The notes under the pieces are model-generated. The model did no database searches. It worked only from the letters and a program-made list of their open reading frames with translations, and was not told the DNA's origin. A program made the translations under genes and the position numbers. A stretch of DNA of 64,000 nucleotides, taken from the NCBI RefSeq assembly GCF_003151075.1, contig NZ_CP029482.1:4650001-4714000 (forward strand). The letters are read 5' to 3'. This document shows, in pieces, positions 6,937 to 25,908 of the stretch (positions are counted from its first letter, which is position 1; every line of letters begins with the position of its first letter). Source of the DNA: Pseudomonas sp. 31-12 (GTDB lineage Bacteria > Pseudomonadota > Gammaproteobacteria > Pseudomonadales > Pseudomonadaceae).

Positions 6937-7188
6937 ATGCGCGCCGAAGACCTGCTTCCCGACGATCAAAACCAGGGCCAATTCAAAGGAGTTACCGTGC
7001 GCAAAGGCACGGTCGGGGCCTTTCTGACCAATGCCCGGGTATTTGCCGACGACCGTGCAAACGAAGAAAAACGCCGAAGCGCCGAGCTCGATATTGTGGC
7101 GGCCTTGCCGGCGCTTCGCGCATTGGGGTTGTTCGACATCCTGCAAGTACGCGACGAGTCCTTGCGAGTGTTGTGCGACCAACCGTGA
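6937..7188 (+). CDS. Small conserved-looking hypothetical protein (83 aa)
   Basis: A soluble, charged 83 aa protein without signal peptide or membrane segment. It has no motif I recognise. The centre is rich in charged residues (ADDRANEEKRRSAELD) and the C-terminus is leucine-rich (ALPALRALGLFDILQV). The ATG at 6937 has GGAG upstream. The opposite strand is also open here, so the coding strand is chosen on the ribosome binding site and on direction shared with the transporter downstream. It lies divergent to the AraC gene. The family resembles short Pseudomonas hypotheticals, but I cannot name it. Confidence 0.5.
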   Translation: MRAEDLLPDDQNQGQFKGVTVRKGTVGAFLTNARVFADDRANEEKRRSAELDIVAALPALRALGLFDILQVRDESLRVLCDQP

Positions 7189-7325
7189 CACCCGCGCTCG
7201 CGATTATGGGTCAGGCTGTGCAAGGATGTCCCCCTGCCTCACCGCAAACCTGCGCGGACGCTGACCGAACCCTATGGGTCAGTCACTGTCCCTTGGGAAC
7301 GCGACGTTTTTTGCCAAGGATTGAT

Positions 7326-8477
7326 ATGACCAGCCTCAATACCCAAGCCTCATTTGTTCCCGGACGCCTGGAGCAGATGTCCACCCGCATCGCCTTTTTC
7401 ATCGCAGGTCTTGGCATCGCCGCCTGGGCGCCGCTGGTGCCGTATGCCAAGGCACGGGCCGGGCTCGACGAAGGGACGCTCGGGTTGTTGCTGTTATGCC
7501 TGGGGGTGGGCTCGATTCTGGCGATGCCGATGGCGGGTCTCTTGTCCACGCGTTTCGGCTGCCGTCGGGTTGCGACCGGGGGAACGTTGTTGATCTGCGT
7601 CGCGTTGCCGTTATTGGCGACGGTGTCATCGGTGCCGGCATTGATCGCCACGCTGTTCCTGTTTGGCGCTGGTTTGGGCACGGTGGATTCGACGGTGAAC
7701 CTGCAAGCGGTGATCGTCGAACGCGCCAGTGGCAAGAACATGATGTCGGGGTTTCACGGGATGTTCAGCCTCGGCGGAATTGTCGGCGCGGCGGGTGTCA
7801 GCGCTCTGCTCGGCCTGGGACTGTCGCCGCTGGGGGCGATGGCGGTGGTGATTGTCGTGCTGGTGCTGGCCTTGCTTAAAGCGGCGCCGCACCTGTTGCC
7901 TTACGGCAGCGAAAGCTCGGGACCTGCGTTTGCCGTACCCCATGGCATCGTGCTGTTTATCGGCGGCATGTGTTTCATCGTGTTCCTGGCCGAGGGCGCG
8001 GCGCTCGACTGGAGCGCGGTGTTCCTGGTGCAGGAACGCGGGATCGACACGGCATACGCGGGGCTGGGCTACGCGGCGTTTGCCCTGACCATGACCGCCG
8101 GGCGGCTGACCGGCGACAGGATTGTCCGGCATCTGGGCGCGACGCGGGTGATGGTGTTCGGTGGCCTGATGGCGGCGGCGGGACTGGCACTGGCGACATT
8201 TGCACCGGCCTGGGAGGCGGCGCTGGTCGGTTATGCGTTATTGGGTGCGGGTTGCTCGAACATCGTGCCGGTGCTGTACACCGCGGTCGGAAAACAGACA
8301 GTCATGCCTGAGCACATTGCGGTGCCGGCCATTACCACGTTGGGCTACGCGGGGATTCTCGCGGGCCCGGCGGTGATCGGGTTTATCGCCCATGGTAGCA
8401 GTTTGAGTTTTGCGTTTGGGTTGATGGCGGTGTTGCTGGTGGCGGTGGCCATTGGCGGCAAGGTGTTGAAGGTCTGA
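7326..8477 (+). CDS. MFS transporter (YbjJ-like)
   Basis: A 383 aa inner-membrane protein with about 12 hydrophobic segments and MFS signatures. These include the conserved loop RFGCRRVATGG between segments 2 and 3, and a glycine-rich GFHGMFSLGGIVGAAG region near segment 5. The latter is typical of the YbjJ-type branch of sugar- or drug-efflux-like carriers. The start at 7326 follows CAAGGATTG. The substrate cannot be told from sequence. It lies downstream of the small unknown gene and divergent to the AraC regulator, which may control it. Confidence 0.8.
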   Translation: MTSLNTQASFVPGRLEQMSTRIAFFIAGLGIAAWAPLVPYAKARAGLDEGTLGLLLLCLGVGSILAMPMAGLLSTRFGCRRVATGGTLLICVALPLLATVSSVPALIATLFLFGAGLGTVDSTVNLQAVIVERASGKNMMSGFHGMFSLGGIVGAAGVSALLGLGLSPLGAMAVVIVVLVLALLKAAPHLLPYGSESSGPAFAVPHGIVLFIGGMCFIVFLAEGAALDWSAVFLVQERGIDTAYAGLGYAAFALTMTAGRLTGDRIVRHLGATRVMVFGGLMAAAGLALATFAPAWEAALVGYALLGAGCSNIVPVLYTAVGKQTVMPEHIAVPAITTLGYAGILAGPAVIGFIAHGSSLSFAFGLMAVLLVAVAIGGKVLKV

Positions 8478-18539: not shown

Positions 18540-18585
18540 GAACGATGACGTGGTGCTTTAGTGGCTACTCGGGCAGTTCAACGTC
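18516..18585 (+). repeat. Flanking direct repeat, left copy
   Basis: 70 bp that matches 21252-21321 at 59 of 70 positions. It spans the right REP arm and the start of the DUF6124 3' end. On the minus strand it encodes a relic tail DVELPE-stop that corresponds to NVEVPK-stop of the DUF6124 gene. Confidence 0.7.
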
Positions 18586-19702
18586 AAGCCGTTGGCATAT
18601 CCATCCTATAACCCGCCCCAGGCGCCCCTTCATGCATCGCCGCCTGAATGTCTGCATACAAGGCGTTCGCCTCAGCAGTAGTGATCGATCGTGAACAATC
18701 ACGCAGCACCACACGCAAAAGCACATTCTCCTGGCCCGGCAGCATCCCGAGTCGCTCAATTGCCTGCGAAGGTAACTCCGAGTAATCCCAACGCCCCTTG
18801 ACCTGCATCTCCTCGATCCAGTTAGAACTGTCACCCGCAGCCAGCAACATTCTCTCGGTCAACACCTCTTCGCTTAGCCCCGGTGTTACCGCCAACGAAA
18901 TGTCACGAGCAATCGACGGCAAACGAGATACCGCAGTCCATGGATTCAGATCATGCATCTGCGCCTGCACTCGCGTGTTCTGATCGCGTAACAAGCGAAT
19001 ATCCGGGATGCCTTTGCGCAACATCGTCAGGCGATCCAGTCCCATCCCGAGAGCCAGTCCTCCGTGACACAGCGGGTCGATCTTCAAGCGTTCCAACAAA
19101 GACTTCGCAATACGGCCGCACTCCAGCACCTCGACCGGCGCGTTGTCATTCAACACATTCACTTCAATTCCACCCTCGGTGTAGTGATGCGGACTGTCGC
19201 TGTAGACCCACGCTTTTTCAGGAACGGCGGACTTGAGGATATCCCCGACCAGACGCAACAGATGCTCATGTGTAGCCAATTCCGGATCACCCAGCACCCA
19301 GATATCCATTTGATGCGGTTCGGCACAATGCCAACGATCCCGACTATCACGACGAAAAGTAATGCCCGGCGCAGCCAGCAAGATCGTTTGCCCAGTTTGC
19401 CGCACCTGAGCCGCTCGCTGGAGCGCTGACGGAATCTGGCTGGTGGTTTGTGTACGTAACAGTGAGCACTCATCGACCCATCGGGTGTGTTCACTCCCTA
19501 GCGTGACCTCTGCCGGGTCATAGCCGAGTAATCCGTAATTTTCCTCAGCGGACACAATCCGCGGCCCCGTCTGTAGTTGAGCCTGAGGCCAACCTTTTTC
19601 GGCAATTCCTTGGAGGATTTCAGTTAACAGGAGCCGGACGGCGTGGTCAGGATTGTTTGATTCGGTTAGATCAACCATTAATAGGGCTTGATGAACAGAC
19701 AT
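18584..19702 (-). CDS. srmL: PheS-related ligase with fused FDX-ACB domain
   Basis: A 372 aa class II aminoacyl-tRNA-synthetase-like protein. Class II motif 2 is seen in FRRDSRDRWHCAEPHQMD and motif 3 in GLALGMGLDRLTML. VEVLECGRI matches a PheS block. The PheS pocket GFAFG is changed to GLALG. After about residue 280 a ferredoxin-fold anticodon-binding (FDX-ACB) domain follows, so the layout is that of the single-chain mitochondrial PheRS, not bacterial PheS plus PheT. It is not a housekeeping PheRS: no pheT is present and it sits in an AT-rich island beside a short peptide gene. From memory the family is catalogued as PheS-related mystery ligase SrmL; its reaction is not known to me. The start is uncertain: ATG 19702 gives a clean family-like N-terminus; ATG 19777 has a better ribosome binding site (TTAGG). 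Confidence 0.75.
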   Translation of the reverse strand: MSVHQALLMVDLTESNNPDHAVRLLLTEILQGIAEKGWPQAQLQTGPRIVSAEENYGLLGYDPAEVTLGSEHTRWVDECSLLRTQTTSQIPSALQRAAQVRQTGQTILLAAPGITFRRDSRDRWHCAEPHQMDIWVLGDPELATHEHLLRLVGDILKSAVPEKAWVYSDSPHHYTEGGIEVNVLNDNAPVEVLECGRIAKSLLERLKIDPLCHGGLALGMGLDRLTMLRKGIPDIRLLRDQNTRVQAQMHDLNPWTAVSRLPSIARDISLAVTPGLSEEVLTERMLLAAGDSSNWIEEMQVKGRWDYSELPSQAIERLGMLPGQENVLLRVVLRDCSRSITTAEANALYADIQAAMHEGAPGAGYRMDMPTA

Positions 19703-20023
19703 ATCCGTCAGATATTTCTTTGATGCATGCACTATATAATCCTCTCTACAATTAAATATCGAGCTAAAAACGCCCATAAATAAACCTAACGACACAAGAT
19801 CATTAATCACAACCAAAAAAAGTAATATTTCAGATTTTCAGAACAAGACTACAGACCGAACCTACATAAATAACCGCCTTGAACACCCCCGCATTCTTCA
19901 TAGCCAAAATTATTCTAAAAAACCCAAAACAAACTATTTATCACATTAAAAAACTCTGTATTAATTAATCCACTCCCGAGCAACTGAGGGAGCAAAACCA
20001 AAAAAATGAAAAAGGATGATCAA
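19703..20023. promoter_or_regulatory. AT-rich divergent promoter region of the island
   Basis: This gap separates the PheS-like gene (minus) from the peptide gene (plus). It is strongly AT-rich compared with the surroundings. A plausible plus-strand promoter is TTTATC (19937-19942) with TATTAA (19959-19964), 16 bp apart. No other gene is seen in it. Confidence 0.35.
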
Positions 20024-20125
20024 ATGAAAAATAAAAAAAACGTCAAAGAGAAGCTTAACCGGATCACTTCTGGCCCGGAGAATTTCGGGTGGGCGCCGTT
20101 AGCTTGGGCTCACACTGAAGAGTAA
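20024..20125 (+). CDS. Short peptide gene, candidate precursor of a modified peptide (33 aa)
   Basis: Encodes 33 residues. The N-terminal half is lysine- and asparagine-rich (MKNKKNVKEKLNRITS). The C-terminal half has a different character, GPENFGWAPLAWAHTEE. This split into charged leader and aromatic/proline core resembles a ribosomal peptide precursor. The ATG at 20024 has AAAGGA with a 7-nt spacer. An in-frame ATG at 20006 would give 39 residues (adding MKKDDQ) with a more distant AGGGAG. A strong hairpin follows, then the M29-like gene. The PheS-like ligase gene is divergent. Function as ligase or peptidase substrate is inferred from context; it could also be a regulatory leader peptide. 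Confidence 0.6.
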   Translation: MKNKKNVKEKLNRITSGPENFGWAPLAWAHTEE

Positions 20126-20132
20126 ATAGCTA

Positions 20133-20164
20133 TAATGCACGGCAAGCTTTCTTGCCGTGCATTA
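20133..20164 (+). promoter_or_regulatory. Perfect 14 bp stem hairpin between peptide and peptidase genes
   Basis: TAATGCACGGCAAG and CTTGCCGTGCATTA form a perfect stem with loop CTTT. It is followed by A rather than T, so it is not a standard terminator. It may protect the peptide message or reduce read-through into the next gene, as in many precursor-peptide operons. Confidence 0.6.
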
Positions 20165-20182
20165 AAAAATCAGGAGGGTTTT

Positions 20183-21106
20183 ATGTCACTAAAAAATATA
20201 ACATCGACACTCTTCCACCATGAGAAACCATCAATCATCGCGGACTCAGAGGACTTCCTCAGAGAGTGTGCGTTCCTAGGATTCAACACGGCCAATATTT
20301 CTGGGCTACAGAAATTACCAAAAAACAGTATTGTGTTTTCTTTTAGCAATGACGCTGCAAAAAAAACGTTCGAACTGGCAAAAAACACAGAAAGCAAGAA
20401 AAGTGTTTTCTGCGCGACTCAAGTGTTCGAGCCCACCACAGCTATTGCACTCTATAGCTTGAAACTTTTGCTGAGCAGCAATTTTGAAGATGCATTGCAC
20501 ACACAGCGCACTGTGTTAAACATGCTAAATTCAAATGAGAAATTTGTCCTATCTGGTAACGACGCCGACGCGAAAGTCTCAATTTCTCCACACGCCGAAC
20601 CTTACGCACTACTTGCTGAAGACGTGTCTTGTGATTTTGTTCAGTCCGTAGCAGAGTTTTTTGAAGTTCATTATGCACACATGAATCCACAAGAGCCCTG
20701 TCCGTTTTCTTTTACAGGAACATTAAAAATTGCGGGCATATTGACCGTACTTAGAAAGCCTAACCCGATACTACCAGAGGGTTTGAAAATCTCACTTAAA
20801 TGGCTGAGCGATCGAATATCGAATGACGGAGCACTCTTATCTATTGAGGACAACACCATCACATCACTTCAAATAAAAAACGAGGAGCACATAAAGCTTC
20901 TGGATCTTGCAGCCGGTTTTCGTGGACTGAAATTGACGGAGTTCGCCATCGGGGTCAACGAGTCTATTGCTTCAAACATTGATTACAGTATCAACTCACA
21001 AATGAATGAAGGCATCAGCGGGATTCACTTAGCTATTGGTGATGGGTCCTCTGGTTATCACATTGACTTCCTAAGTCCTGCAGTGAGCGTATATCCCGAT
21101 CATTAG
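20183..21106 (+). CDS. Divergent M29-like (aminopeptidase T fold) metallopeptidase
   Basis: A 307 aa soluble protein without signal peptide. The C-terminal part resembles M29 aminopeptidases: LTEFAIGVNES (cf. GELGIGTNP), MNEGISGIHLAIGDG and YHIDFLSP. Candidate metal ligands Glu276, His282, His293 and Asp295 are all present. The N-terminal part is poorly matched and the usual early glutamate (GEVF-type motif) was not found, so activity is uncertain. The protein is shorter than M29 enzymes (about 400 aa). The start has a near-perfect AGGAGGG 5 bp upstream. Codon use is AT-rich like the rest of the island. It probably acts on the peptide encoded just upstream, for instance removing terminal residues; this is inferred. 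Confidence 0.5.
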   Translation: MSLKNITSTLFHHEKPSIIADSEDFLRECAFLGFNTANISGLQKLPKNSIVFSFSNDAAKKTFELAKNTESKKSVFCATQVFEPTTAIALYSLKLLLSSNFEDALHTQRTVLNMLNSNEKFVLSGNDADAKVSISPHAEPYALLAEDVSCDFVQSVAEFFEVHYAHMNPQEPCPFSFTGTLKIAGILTVLRKPNPILPEGLKISLKWLSDRISNDGALLSIEDNTITSLQIKNEEHIKLLDLAAGFRGLKLTEFAIGVNESIASNIDYSINSQMNEGISGIHLAIGDGSSGYHIDFLSPAVSVYPDH

Positions 21107-22383: not shown

Positions 22384-23532
22384 ATGCGAACCAACAGGAT
22401 CAACGTACAGTCAGCGCTAGGTCTGAGCCTGCTTGTACTCGGCTTGAACAGCGCCCGTGCGGACCTGCCGGCTGACACCATCGGCCAGACCGTCCTGGCC
22501 TTCCCGCCAGAAGCTCACCGTGCGTTCATCGTCGACGTCGAATTCGAAAGTTTTGTGATGGGCCGCGTCACCGTGGTCGACCCCGACAAAAAACGCGTGC
22601 TCGGCATGGTGCCGACCGGTTTTGCCGCGCCGTCGACCCTCAGCCACGACCAGAAAACCCTCTACAGCGCCGACATCTTTTACTCGCGCGGCACTCGTGG
22701 CACGCGCACCGATGTGTTGACCGCGTGGGACAGTTCGACCCTGTCGCCAGCCTGGGAACTGTTGATCCCCACCAAGCGCGCCGAATCCCTGACCCAGCGC
22801 TACGGCCTGAAGACCAGCGGCGATGACCGTTTCGTCTACGTCTACAACTTCACACCGTCGACCTCGGTGACCGTGGTCGACACCCAGGCCAAGGCCGTGG
22901 CCGCTGAACTGGCGATTCCGGGCTGCGTGCTCAACTACCCGGTCGGCAACCGCCGCTTCGCCTCGCTGTGCGGTGACGGCAGCTTGCAGGTGATCACGCT
23001 CAACGATCAGGGCCAGGAAACCGCGCGCAGCCGCACGCCGTTCTTCGACCCGAACGCGGAGAAGCTCAACGAGCGCGCAGTGAACGTCGGCGATACCTAT
23101 TACTTCACCACCACCACGGGCACCGTTCGCCCGGTGGATTTCGCCGGCGACGCGCCGAAAATCCTGCCGTCGTGGTCGTTGACCACCGACGAGGAAAAGA
23201 AAGCCGGCTGGGCGCCGGGTGGCTGGCAGTTGATGGCCGTGGCGCCGAAGTTGAATCGTTTGTACGTGCTGATGCACGACGCCCACGAACCGATGAAGTG
23301 GGAAGACCCGAGCACGCTGATCTGGGCGTATGACCTCAAGACCCACAAGAAAGTCGCCACCCTGGAAGCACCGGTTCCGGTGTGGAGCATGCAGGCCACC
23401 GGCGACGACAAGCCGCTGTTGCTGGGAGCCGACGTTACTGGTGGTTTGCAGATCTTCGATCTCAAGACCAACACGCTCACCGGCAGCATGCCCAAAGTCG
23501 CGAAAACCGCGACTCAGGTCATGAGCTACTAA
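22384..23532 (+). CDS. aauB: Aromatic amine dehydrogenase heavy chain
   Basis: The 382 aa large subunit of a tryptophan tryptophylquinone (TTQ) amine dehydrogenase. It has a signal peptide (about 1-26, LSLLVLGLNSARA). A seven-bladed beta-propeller is indicated by repeated VTVVDPDKKRVLGMVPTG- and VTVVDTQAKAVAAEL-type blades. The heavy chain supports the catalytic light chain in a periplasmic heterotetramer oxidising primary aromatic amines such as phenylethylamine or tyramine. The start follows CAGGGAG. It is the first gene of aauB-mauE-mauD-aauA. Methylamine dehydrogenase (mauB) is the alternative; the neighbouring tynA, feaR and paa genes favour an aromatic substrate. Confidence 0.88.
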   Translation: MRTNRINVQSALGLSLLVLGLNSARADLPADTIGQTVLAFPPEAHRAFIVDVEFESFVMGRVTVVDPDKKRVLGMVPTGFAAPSTLSHDQKTLYSADIFYSRGTRGTRTDVLTAWDSSTLSPAWELLIPTKRAESLTQRYGLKTSGDDRFVYVYNFTPSTSVTVVDTQAKAVAAELAIPGCVLNYPVGNRRFASLCGDGSLQVITLNDQGQETARSRTPFFDPNAEKLNERAVNVGDTYYFTTTTGTVRPVDFAGDAPKILPSWSLTTDEEKKAGWAPGGWQLMAVAPKLNRLYVLMHDAHEPMKWEDPSTLIWAYDLKTHKKVATLEAPVPVWSMQATGDDKPLLLGADVTGGLQIFDLKTNTLTGSMPKVAKTATQVMSY

Positions 23533-23545
23533 ACGAGGTTCGGCC

Positions 23546-24085
23546 ATGCACTTAGATCCGATCTTCATCATTGCCAGCGCCCTCGCCACGGCGGTGTTGC
23601 TGGCCAGCGCCGCGACGCACAAGGTGCGCGCGCCGGCACGCTTCGCCAAACAGTTGGCAGACTACCAATTGCTGCCGGACGCACTGGTGCGCCCCGTCGC
23701 CCGTGTGATCCCGGTTATAGAGCTGGTGATTGCGTTCGCGCTGCTGGTGCCAGCCAGCCGGTATTGGGCCGCGTTGGCAGCCGCCAGCCTGATCGCCCTG
23801 TACGCCGCCGCGATTGGCATCAACCTGTGGCGCGGCCGTCGCGACATCGACTGTGGCTGTGCCGGTCCGGACCAGGCGCAACCGCTGCGCCCGATGCTGC
23901 TGCTGCGCAACGGCGCACTGGTGGGCCTGGCGCTGCTGGCCAGCGTTTCGCCGGTCGCCCGCGACCTCGGTTTTTTCGACGGCTTCGTCACTGTCGCCGC
24001 CAGCGGCGTTGCGCTGCTGATCTACGCCGCAGCCGATGGCTTGCTGGCGAACTCCCCTCTTCTGCTCAAACTGATTGGTAGGTGA
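23546..24085 (+). CDS. mauE: MauE-like membrane protein for amine dehydrogenase maturation
   Basis: A 179 aa inner-membrane protein with about five hydrophobic segments and the DoxX/MauE-type start IIASALATAVLLASAATHKVRAP. A CGC motif (DIDCGCAGPDQ) lies in a loop. MauE is needed, with MauD, to make the disulfide-rich light chain, probably by passing reducing equivalents. It starts 14 bp after aauB and ends 3 bp before mauD, so all are translated from one message. Confidence 0.88.
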   Translation: MHLDPIFIIASALATAVLLASAATHKVRAPARFAKQLADYQLLPDALVRPVARVIPVIELVIAFALLVPASRYWAALAAASLIALYAAAIGINLWRGRRDIDCGCAGPDQAQPLRPMLLLRNGALVGLALLASVSPVARDLGFFDGFVTVAASGVALLIYAAADGLLANSPLLLKLIGR

Positions 24086-24088
24086 TCA

Positions 24089-24709
24089 ATGGAAGGCTTA
24101 ATCGTTTCCAACGTTCTGCTCTGGGTACTGCTGGTGGCCGTGACTTTTGTCGTGATGGGCCTGGTGCGGCAGATTGGTGTGTTGCACGGCCGTCTCGCTC
24201 CCGCCGGGGCGCTGATGGTCGACAAGGGCGTGGCGGTCAATGAGGCCGCGCCGCAAGTCACGGCGTCCGACCGTCATGGTCGCCCGGTGAACTTCGGTTA
24301 TGCCGGCGAAAAGAACCAGTTGCTGTTCTTCCTCTCGCCGACCTGCCCAATCTGCAAATCGCTGTTGCCGGCGATCAAATCCATCGCCAAAGAACAGGCC
24401 GGTCGCCTCGACGTGGTGTTCATCAGCGACGGCGACATGGACGCCCAGCAAGCGCTGATCCGCGAACACAAACTGGAAGACGCCACCTACGTGGTCGGCC
24501 CGGAGGTGGGCATGACCTACCAGATCGGCAAGCTGCCGTACGCCGCTCTGATCGACAAAACCGGCACCCTGCGCGCCAAAGGCCTGGTCAATTCCCGTGA
24601 GCACCTGGACAGCCTGTTCGAAGTCGAGCACCTGAAAAGCGCCACGCTGCAGCAATACCTCAACAGCCAGCCGCAGGCACACGACCACAGCCACGGCCAT
24701 AGCCACTGA
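24089..24709 (+). CDS. mauD: MauD-like thioredoxin-fold maturation protein
   Basis: A 206 aa protein with one N-terminal membrane anchor (about 7-27) and a periplasmic TlpA/thioredoxin domain. The redox motif is CPIC in FFLSPTCPICKSLLP. MauD forms or isomerises the six disulfides of the amine dehydrogenase light chain. The C-terminus is histidine-rich (HDHSHGHSH), which could bind metal; I do not know whether this is usual in the family. It lies between mauE and aauA in the operon. Confidence 0.9.
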   Translation: MEGLIVSNVLLWVLLVAVTFVVMGLVRQIGVLHGRLAPAGALMVDKGVAVNEAAPQVTASDRHGRPVNFGYAGEKNQLLFFLSPTCPICKSLLPAIKSIAKEQAGRLDVVFISDGDMDAQQALIREHKLEDATYVVGPEVGMTYQIGKLPYAALIDKTGTLRAKGLVNSREHLDSLFEVEHLKSATLQQYLNSQPQAHDHSHGHSH

Positions 24710-24728
24710 TTAAGGCAGGGAGACTTTT

Positions 24729-25250
24729 ATGAAACTGCTGGATCTGTTATTCGAGCGCTCGACCCGTCGAGTCGCCGACACCACCTCACGCCGTAAACTG
24801 CTGGCGCGCATGGGTTCCTTGATGGTCGCCGGTGCCGCCCTGCCGCTGCTGTTGCCGCTGGACCGCACCAGCAAGGCGCTGGCGGCGGACAACCCGAAGG
24901 CCGGCGATCCGGGTGATCCGAACACTTGCGACTACTGGCGCTACTGCTCCATCGACGGTTTCCTGTGCAGCTGCTGCGGAGGGTCGGTGACGTCCTGCCC
25001 GCCGGGCACCGAAGCCTCGCAAGTGACCTGGATCGGCACCTGCCGCAACCCGGCCGATGGCAAGGATTACATCATTTCCTACAACGATTGCTGCGGTAAG
25101 CAAAGCTGCGCCCAGTGCGCTTGCACCCGAAACGACAGTGAAGAACCGGCTTACCGCCCGTTCAACAACAACGATGTGAACTGGTGCCTGGCCGCCAAAT
25201 CGCACATCTATCACTGCACCGTTTCGATCATCCGTGGCGTCGCCGTCTAA
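24729..25250 (+). CDS. aauA: Aromatic amine dehydrogenase light chain (TTQ subunit)
   Basis: The 173 aa catalytic subunit. A twin-arginine signal (SRRKLLARMG, Arg21-Arg22) runs to about residue 53. The mature part is very rich in cysteine, as expected for six disulfides. The TTQ cofactor would form from Trp101 (VTWIGTC) and Trp152 (VNWC), 51 residues apart as in known light chains. Asp120 (YNDCC) corresponds to the catalytic aspartate of aromatic amine dehydrogenase by spacing. GGCAGGGAG precedes the ATG. A strong terminator follows. TTQ formation needs MauG or an equivalent, and none is seen in this window. Confidence 0.93.
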   Translation: MKLLDLLFERSTRRVADTTSRRKLLARMGSLMVAGAALPLLLPLDRTSKALAADNPKAGDPGDPNTCDYWRYCSIDGFLCSCCGGSVTSCPPGTEASQVTWIGTCRNPADGKDYIISYNDCCGKQSCAQCACTRNDSEEPAYRPFNNNDVNWCLAAKSHIYHCTVSIIRGVAV

Positions 25251-25259
25251 CGCGCGTTG

Positions 25260-25294
25260 GCCGTCGGTTGCCCAGGCAATCGGCGGCTTTTTTT
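25260..25294 (+). terminator. Rho-independent terminator of the amine dehydrogenase operon
   Basis: A 12-pair stem (GCCGTCGGTTGC / GCAATCGGCGGC, with two G-U pairs), loop CCAG, then seven T. Confidence 0.85.
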
Positions 25295-25386
25295 GGTGCC
25301 ACAACGCGATCCCGTGTAGCCCCTGGTGAAACCTGTGGGAGCGGCGGCTACATAAAAGTGTGTTTCACCGTAGAGGTGCCATTGTC

Positions 25387-25908
25387 ATGCGTAAGTTGCT
25401 ACTCCTCGGTCTTGTCTGCGCCCTGAGCGCCCCGCTCGCCCATGCCCGAGCCATTCCCGATCCGGCGCAGCGCCATGCACCGGGTAACGAAGCGCTGCAA
25501 ACCCCCATCGCTCAGGCGGGATATAGCGTCGGCGTCAACTACCAGCTGCAATGCGCCGGTTGCCACTTGGGCAATGGCATGGGCTCCGCCGCCAACGACA
25601 CGCCGCGCATGACCGGGTTTGTCGGCAACTTCCTGAAAGTACCGGGCGGTCGTGAGTTTCTGGTGCGGGTGCCCGGCATGTCGCAGTCGGCGCTGAACAA
25701 TGCGCAACTGGCGGACTTGCTCAACTGGTTGATCCGTGAAGACGGCCTGGCCGGCAAAAGCACACCGGCCAATTACCAACCGTACAGCGCAGAAGAAGTC
25801 GCGCATCTGCGCGAGAAAGCCATGCTCAACCTGCCGGGCACCCGCGCGGAATTGATCAAGGCCATGCGCGCACAAGGCATCGCGATTGAGGACGGCATGA
25901 GCAACTAG
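25387..25908 (+). CDS. Monohaem c-type cytochrome next to the amine dehydrogenase
   Basis: A 173 aa periplasmic protein. The signal peptide covers about 1-21 (LLLLGLVCALSAPLAHA). A single haem motif CAGCH is present (YQLQCAGCHLGNG). The rest has no second CxxCH, so it is not the dihaem MauG. Comparable cytochromes follow aau operons elsewhere and may carry electrons from the TTQ enzyme. A terminator precedes it, so it probably has its own promoter. The 3' end overlaps a hypothetical gene on the other strand by about 50 bp. Confidence 0.8.
   Translation: MRKLLLLGLVCALSAPLAHARAIPDPAQRHAPGNEALQTPIAQAGYSVGVNYQLQCAGCHLGNGMGSAANDTPRMTGFVGNFLKVPGGREFLVRVPGMSQSALNNAQLADLLNWLIREDGLAGKSTPANYQPYSAEEVAHLREKAMLNLPGTRAELIKAMRAQGIAIEDGMSN

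Follow-up and report, generated by a model that had tools for sequence, protein, structure and literature searches.

Why does a relative of the phenylalanyl-tRNA synthetase (PheRS) subunit PheS lie back to back with a tiny peptide gene in an environmental Pseudomonas, and what does it do there? The locus belongs to a 64,000-nucleotide stretch of Pseudomonas sp. 31-12 (NZ_CP029482.1, positions 4,650,001 to 4,714,000 of the forward strand), the window analysed here, within a 6.73 Mb single-contig genome. Reading the window gives a simple order: srmL, encoding the PheS-like protein SrmL, is divergent from the peptide gene, which is followed by a hairpin and by a gene for a protein resembling CgnB of the crocagin pathway (Table 1). 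A first-pass annotation had proposed a candidate peptide system in which the ligase may extend the peptide, or another carrier, by an amino acid, with an M29-like peptidase trimming or releasing the product. A peptide system does appear to be present, with peptide and third gene occurring together, but the roles given to ligase and peptidase find no support. The explanation that we favour, tentatively and at somewhat less than an even chance, is that SrmL works as a PheRS by itself, its pocket remodelled, and is retained as self-protection against a product of the peptide matured by the CgnB-like protein.

Against the NCBIfam model NF051887, "PheS-related mystery ligase SrmL", the protein reaches 432 bits where the curated cut-off is 300, in keeping with its first-pass placement in an uncharacterised PheS-related group. 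Of the architecture described at first pass, the PheS-type class II core is clear (PF01409, E=4.9e-22) and the FDX-ACB domain is matched weakly (PF03147, E=6.6e-4; 20.5 bits, under the Pfam cut-off of 31.1), a domain precomputed as present in part of the relatives of SrmL, and the Pfam search of the locus proteins returned no match to a PheT domain. In most aligned homologues the start lies some 10 codons before the ATG at 19702, and the GTG at 19732 is preceded by GAGAGGA, judged by eye to fit a ribosome-binding site for the upstream start; srmL therefore probably begins at that GTG. Among open-licence PMC papers, none of the matches listed holds the phrase "PheS-related mystery ligase" or relates to SrmL by title, and searches pairing PEARL (peptide aminoacyl-tRNA ligase) with PheRS or CgnB with Pseudomonas, or aimed at PheS/PheRS paralogues or FDX-ACB, left the locus undescribed, the crocagin paper's supplement of mined CgnB homologues lying outside their scope.

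The catalytic motifs FRRD, PHQMD and GLDR of SrmL align with those of PheS from 8 genomes of the family. SrmL keeps the HQ motif and the arginines of motifs 2 and 3, with R117 and Q131 in 60/60 loci. The substrate pocket is changed: the GFAFG of PheS is GLALG in SrmL (FAF to LAL), and Pro129 replaces the adenine-stacking Phe216 in all 60 loci. Two ring-contact positions, which we take, via the FPF motif, to be those of Thermus thermophilus Phe258 and Phe260, are His172 and Tyr174, so that the substrate-ring contacts expected of a functional PheRS are not conserved. Of the 60 aligned loci, 58 have the His/Tyr pair, as do 11 divergent members drawn from Pseudomonas, Marinomonas, a genome of the same class, Actinomycetota, Azotobacter and phages; the two exceptions, P. 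baltica-type SrmL proteins with an intact reading frame (L086, L087), have Cys and Phe. According to the part of a paper cited here, Phe258 and Phe260 stack on the substrate ring (PMC8555319). As for the comparison by structure prediction suggested at first pass, the AlphaFold model of SrmL, with a mean predicted local distance difference test score (pLDDT) of 67, is too weak for residue-level claims, yet its best PDB fold matches, human mitochondrial PheRS (3cmq), reach a template modelling (TM) score of about 0.5. We infer that SrmL would be a stand-alone PheRS whose phenylalanine pocket is remodelled.

For the third gene the M29 label proves only remotely apt. Pfam, Peptidase_M29 included, gives no match to the protein up to E=1, and a sequence search of the PDB finds CgnB (6zsv, E=2e-11) and CgnE (1.5e-5). 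The protein's model is good (pLDDT 91.9), and in Foldseek its best match is again CgnB 6zsv (TM 0.82, E 6e-24), whereas the M29 aminopeptidases PepS and AmpT reach a TM of about 0.5; we therefore rejected an M29 peptidase identity. PF26231 is precomputed on all 120 homologues listed, of 147 found. Glu276, His282, His293 and Asp295, picked out at first pass, are indeed present and, with Glu161 and Glu253, invariant in 28 aligned CgnB-like proteins. These six residues correspond one by one to the zinc ligands of CgnB, which the part of the crocagin report cited here gives as Glu161, Glu252, Glu274, His280, His291 and Asp293 (PMC10070186). The same part of that report records that no aminopeptidase activity was observed for CgnB and CgnE, that the crocagin leader is rich in positive charges, and that genomes with a single CgnB/CgnE copy all have the metal site intact. 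By homology and fold, the third gene product is a CgnB homologue with its di-zinc site intact. Elsewhere (L157-L165), CgnB-like genes adjoin a prolyl iminopeptidase-like gene and hut-like genes, named by eye; no peptide was found in these loci, and the metal-site residues are intact in the five CgnB-like proteins read. The P. baltica srmL (L086) adjoins a similar iminopeptidase-like gene.

The tiny divergent gene is real. Across 31 loci including the window (465 pairs), the 17-codon core has mean proportions of synonymous and nonsynonymous differences, pS and pN, of 0.67 and 0.067, a pN/pS of about 0.10; selection on the 33-aa peptide is thus strong at the level of the protein, as the first-pass annotation had required. 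The peptide is Lys-rich with a nearly invariant aromatic core, N-F-G-W-A-P-L-A-W, and the divergent peptides of L076 and L078 retain F-x-W-P-P-L-x-W. A database search found 57 relatives of 31-128 aa, all from Pseudomonas where an organism is named. The hairpin noted earlier is general too: a stable one (z<-2), widely differing in sequence, lies between peptide and CgnB-like gene in 32/33 loci folded. A second CgnB-like lineage (L166, L167 and L168, from Pseudomonas G216, G522 and G222) has its own TLKRIKPTQQNTFGYYPLTKW-type peptide upstream, in genomes without SrmL (E<=1e-60).

We examined who occurs with whom in two surveys that overlap in genomes. The first comprises 63 SrmL loci from GTDB plus the window; it was found via SrmL, which favours intact SrmL, and a few of its loci lie close to contig ends (L035, L056, L095). 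The unit of peptide and CgnB-like gene is intact in 28 of these 64 loci (27 by script, and L062, where the peptide was seen separately), decayed in 10 and absent from 26. Half of the decayed loci keep the peptide and half do not; SrmL is intact in nine of the ten. Overall SrmL is at least 90% covered in one frame in 60/64 loci, and no intact unit stands beside a broken SrmL in this SrmL-found set. The first-pass annotation had named ligases regularly lacking the other two genes as grounds for refuting it, and the 26 orphan and 10 decayed loci supply them.

The second survey covers 398 genomes of the genus. SrmL is present in 37 (E<=1e-60), a CgnB-like gene in 33 (E<=1e-8) and both in 20; four of the 20 have a broken or partial CgnB-like gene, and in the remaining 16 the genes are adjacent. 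Every genome whose CgnB-like gene belongs to this clade and is intact, 16 in all, thus also carries SrmL, side by side with it; 17/37 SrmL genomes have no CgnB-like gene at that threshold. CgnB-like genes without SrmL occur in 13 genomes: nine in a group A in which no peptide was seen, three in a group B with peptide, and one degraded copy. A tight peptide-core pattern, which omits PLVW variants, matched none of the 17 orphan-SrmL genomes searched genome-wide; among six further genomes it matched the four with an intact unit and missed the two with a decayed one. A looser pattern was discarded: it matched 112/398 genomes, and most of the matches listed look unrelated. Further afield SrmL is rare, exceeding the family cut-off in 2/248 family genomes and found in 3/369 class genomes (E<=1e-45).

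With loci grouped as 32 full (the 28 plus L041, L072, L077 and L079), six partial and 26 without unit, four incomplete SrmL excluded, and pairs limited to dS 0.05-1.2, the median omega of SrmL is 0.072 with the unit (58 pairs) and 0.088 without (51 pairs, maximum 0.44); orphan SrmL remains under purifying selection about equal to that on linked SrmL. On the SrmL tree, made with the same grouping and exclusions and with the window's nearest rows being P. arsenicoxydans and P. mandelii, the unit label requires 16 changes, at least 11 of them forced by well-supported branches. Seven pairs of loci were compared, and in six of them one partner has lost the unit or part of it although the far flanks can be aligned; the upstream sequence of 9/23 orphan loci groups with that of unit-bearing loci. 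These data show that SrmL is separable from the unit and that, in the genomes sampled, dependence runs one way, from unit to SrmL.

SrmL also occurs outside Pseudomonas. A tblastn search placed it on three plasmids, of which the two read are Glutamicibacter pGnB68 and an Azotobacter plasmid; on pGnB68 (L373, SrmL at 6962-8080) the preceding annotated gene, in an incomplete table, is a Cmx/CmrA chloramphenicol efflux gene about 480 bases off. SrmL is further present on six contigs, phage or predicted viral, that measure 181-635 kb (L375-L380), and a second viral scan with two further phage searches yielded no additional phage. In L377 SrmL sits inside an array of 17 tRNA genes, with tRNA-Phe(GAA) nearest on either side, a double flank that by our own arithmetic has a chance of about 0.7% given two Phe genes among the 17. 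In L380 the nearest upstream tRNA is tRNA-Val, with tRNA-Phe one tRNA away. In L376, within another tRNA array, SrmL comes after genes for seryl-tRNA synthetase (SerRS) and a HisRS-like protein. The five tRNA-Ser genes upstream of the SerRS gene there indicate that cognate pairs cluster in this contig. Huge phages carry tRNA synthetases, according to the part of a paper cited here (PMC7162821). The tRNA-Phe context in phages points to aminoacylation of tRNA-Phe by SrmL, and hints that a one-chain PheRS may accompany the tRNA-Phe genes of some large phages.

The divergent region holds a further clue, a 21-bp element that, at up to 4 mismatches, precedes srmL in 45/56 loci examined (eight had been excluded beforehand). 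A pattern search of 10 genomes gave 19 places against 2 for the reversed control, eight of the 19 at srmL. Of eight other places read, two are upstream of Hcp genes and one of a PAAR-Ntox44 gene; a VgrG gene adjoins one, an autotransporter gene another, and a receiver-like gene the remaining three (two of these genes, when tested, had no Pfam match). Element sites besides the window's include L229, L232, L235 and L262, at Hcp-class, PAAR-Ntox44 and partly S-type pyocin genes. Scoring Hcp loci (72 stretches, 28 left after a simple open-reading-frame filter), 6/14 of the "YM-I-G-QG-IS-GCS" class reached 15 bits, one of them (L235) having come from the pattern search itself, against 0/14 for other Hcp and 2/388 control entries, the two with equal scores from one locus. 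Among S-type pyocins, of 30 loci five were dropped because the start lay too near the end, and 1/25 scored reached 15 bits, in a gene already known from the pattern search; the 332 controls included four at 18 bits or more, probably some of them srmL regions. Seven S-pyocin loci of one subfamily have only a CTGTAGGA-like half element (six CTGTAGGA, one CAGTAGGA) at -76 to -98. In the window's own genome, at up to 2 mismatches, the element is as common as its reversed control (8 vs 8). Element sharing tentatively places the locus among interbacterial-competition genes.

How might these pieces fit together? If SrmL is protective, the locus would be a minimal CgnB-type cassette for a peptide resembling a ribosomally synthesised and post-translationally modified peptide (RiPP), plus its guard. 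The CgnB-like protein would bind the leader and mature the core into a small product; that product, the cell's own or a neighbour's, would block the normal PheRS, and SrmL would let the cell go on charging tRNA-Phe. Such a role would explain the retention of SrmL after loss of the peptide unit, and also that SrmL accompanied every intact unit of this clade that was seen; the asymmetry of 28 trios, 10 decayed loci and 26 orphans and the 16/16 genomes speak for it. So do the homology, fold and zinc site of the CgnB-like protein, the selection on the peptide, the hairpin, the repeated changes of the unit label on the SrmL tree, the low omega of orphan SrmL, the neighbours of SrmL in the phage contigs, the fold match to mitochondrial PheRS from a weak model, and the retained His172/Tyr174 pair. 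The efflux gene before SrmL on the Glutamicibacter plasmid and the element upstream of some interbacterial-toxin genes agree with it. A bolder form is possible though doubtful: that the CgnB-matured Pseudomonas RiPP poisons PheRS, and that SrmL is an inhibitor-proof single-chain PheRS family which plasmids, huge phages and bacteria in competition disseminate for protection.

Several observations weigh against the explanation favoured here. The altered pocket and Pro129 in place of Phe216 could point to another substrate, and the FDX-ACB domain, weak in the window, is also under the Pfam cut-off in L373 and L376 and undetected in L377. The phage context is uneven: tRNA-Phe lies beside SrmL in only 2/6 contigs, L377 and L380, which are related (67% identity), the 6 kb around SrmL are free of tRNA genes in L375 and L379, and L378 has only a transfer-messenger RNA call. 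Peptide and CgnB-like gene exist without SrmL in group B (3/398 genomes). No exporter recurs regularly with the trio; an ATP-binding cassette ATPase family occurs in 7/32 loci with the unit and 4/26 without. The upstream sequence of 14/23 orphan loci is of a different type, so that allele replacement rather than simple loss may explain some of them. Finally, no unit lies beside SrmL in Marinomonas, on the two plasmids read or in the phages, which implies that protection against this peptide can be neither its sole nor its first role.

The rival explanations read the linkage differently. SrmL might tailor or inactivate the peptide or its product, transferring an activated amino acid or using a charged tRNA, and perhaps protect as well. 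Its catalytic motifs are retained and it stands divergent from the unit in 28/64 loci, and the part of a paper cited here describes SbzA, an extra IleRS that is both self-resistance protein and tailoring enzyme (PMC12945691). Against this, orphan SrmL is conserved where the core pattern is absent from all 17 genomes searched, SrmL lies among tRNA genes in 3/6 phage contigs, the 17-residue core has no Lys or Cys in 31 loci, and the peptide C-termini differ (WAHTEE, WAYTED, SWP, AWA, TKW), which weighs against ligation to a fixed C-terminus; we hold tailoring to be unlikely. The original proposal, a PEARL-like addition of an amino acid followed by release of a small product by the third protein as peptidase, could draw on those same motifs, on a short carrier-like peptide and on an intact metal site. 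The conserved peptide-free SrmL loci, the variable C-termini and the CgnB-type third gene already refute it in part and leave it very improbable.

SrmL might also work independently, as a stand-alone PheRS or a spare enzyme of translation, and share with the unit a divergent control region and no joint function. That would suit the lone SrmL genes seen at different genomic positions, in Marinomonas and also on plasmids and large-phage contigs. It sits poorly with an SrmL neighbour in 16/16 genomes that have this clade's CgnB-like gene intact when SrmL is found in only 37/398, and with the fact that beyond the trio no gene family occurs in more than 11/32 unit-bearing loci (homologues of CgnC, CgnD and CgnL were not searched by sequence), and we think it improbable. 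The short open reading frame might also be a regulatory leader peptide with an attenuator: its core has two Trp codons, a hairpin precedes the structural gene, and five T follow the hairpin in L072 and L084. Conservation reaches the whole core at protein level, N, F, G, P and L included; regulatory codons do not occur in a run; apart from L072 and L084 no locus, the window's included, has five or more T in a row behind the hairpin; and no Rfam family matched within the locus, the only two matches being sub-threshold and downstream of it. An attenuator is accordingly the remotest of the explanations considered.

Table 1. Features of the srmL locus in the window (positions counted from its first nucleotide).
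Feature	Position	Strand	Remarks
srmL	18584..19732	-	single-chain PheS-like: class II core of PheS type, FDX-ACB-like domain weak; GTG at 19732 the probable start
Promoter-like TTGTGA-N17-TTAGGTT box	19783..19812	-	reads toward srmL; similar boxes upstream of many srmL genes; judged by eye
21-bp element, ATTTTCAGAACAAGACTACAG on +	19834..19854	.	in the divergent region between srmL and peptide gene
Precursor-like peptide MKNKKNVKEKLNRITSGPENFGWAPLAWAHTEE, 33 aa	20024..20125	+	alternative ATG at 20006 gives 39 aa
Hairpin, peptide stop to CgnB-like start	20134..20163	+	no T-run after hairpin in the window
CgnB-like protein, 307 aa	20183..21106	+	six zinc-ligand positions intact

Flanks vary among loci. 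In the window they hold genes for a methyl-accepting chemotaxis protein, a DUF6124 protein and a methylamine-dehydrogenase heavy-chain-like protein, the last in a methylamine-dehydrogenase-like gene group next to the locus (22384-25908; heavy chain by Pfam).

These findings connect SrmL, in environmental Pseudomonas, with a compact peptide unit of CgnB type that has two genes, and offer a testable function for what NCBI calls a mystery ligase. If protection is its role, the trio would point the way to an antibacterial peptide of a new type, and possibly to a natural PheRS inhibitor together with its resistance gene.

Among known systems, human mitochondrial PheRS (3cmq), the best fold match, is like SrmL a single chain with a PheS-type core, and its FDX-ACB domain has a weak match in SrmL; the two share 16% identity, and SrmL has His and Tyr at the positions matching F258 and F260. 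With the PEARL enzymes (TglB and others) only the idea of adding an amino acid to a carrier peptide is shared: PEARLs are LanB-like in the part of the paper cited here (PMC12945691), and SrmL is a relative of class II synthetases. The crocagin pathway of Chondromyces crocatus (CgnA, CgnB, CgnE), in the portion of its description cited above (PMC10070186), offers a closer parallel, with a short Lys-rich precursor adjoining a CgnB-family protein, the same six zinc ligands and an aromatic, Trp-containing core. It has a CgnB/CgnE pair where the Pseudomonas genome holds one CgnB-like match, and its core is a C-terminal Ile-Tyr-Trp where ours is F-x-W-x-P-L-x-W; the Pseudomonas locus, which adds SrmL, thus lacks the two CgnB/CgnE copies and the Tyr-Trp C-terminal core of a crocagin-like RiPP cluster. 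In the self-resistance synthetases ObaO, SbzA and AcmD, as far as the cited parts of two papers describe them (PMC10619133, PMC12945691), an extra synthetase-like gene likewise lies in or beside a biosynthetic unit, and SrmL for its part has an altered active site. Such an extra copy stands beside the unit, presumably biosynthetic, in 28/64 loci. Unlike these enzymes, SrmL is a single-chain relative of PheS rather than a copy of the host's two-chain PheRS, and it often occurs without the unit. The nearest example of an additional synthetase that serves as immunity is ObaO, the resistant ThrRS of a P. fluorescens cluster (PMC10619133, in the part cited).

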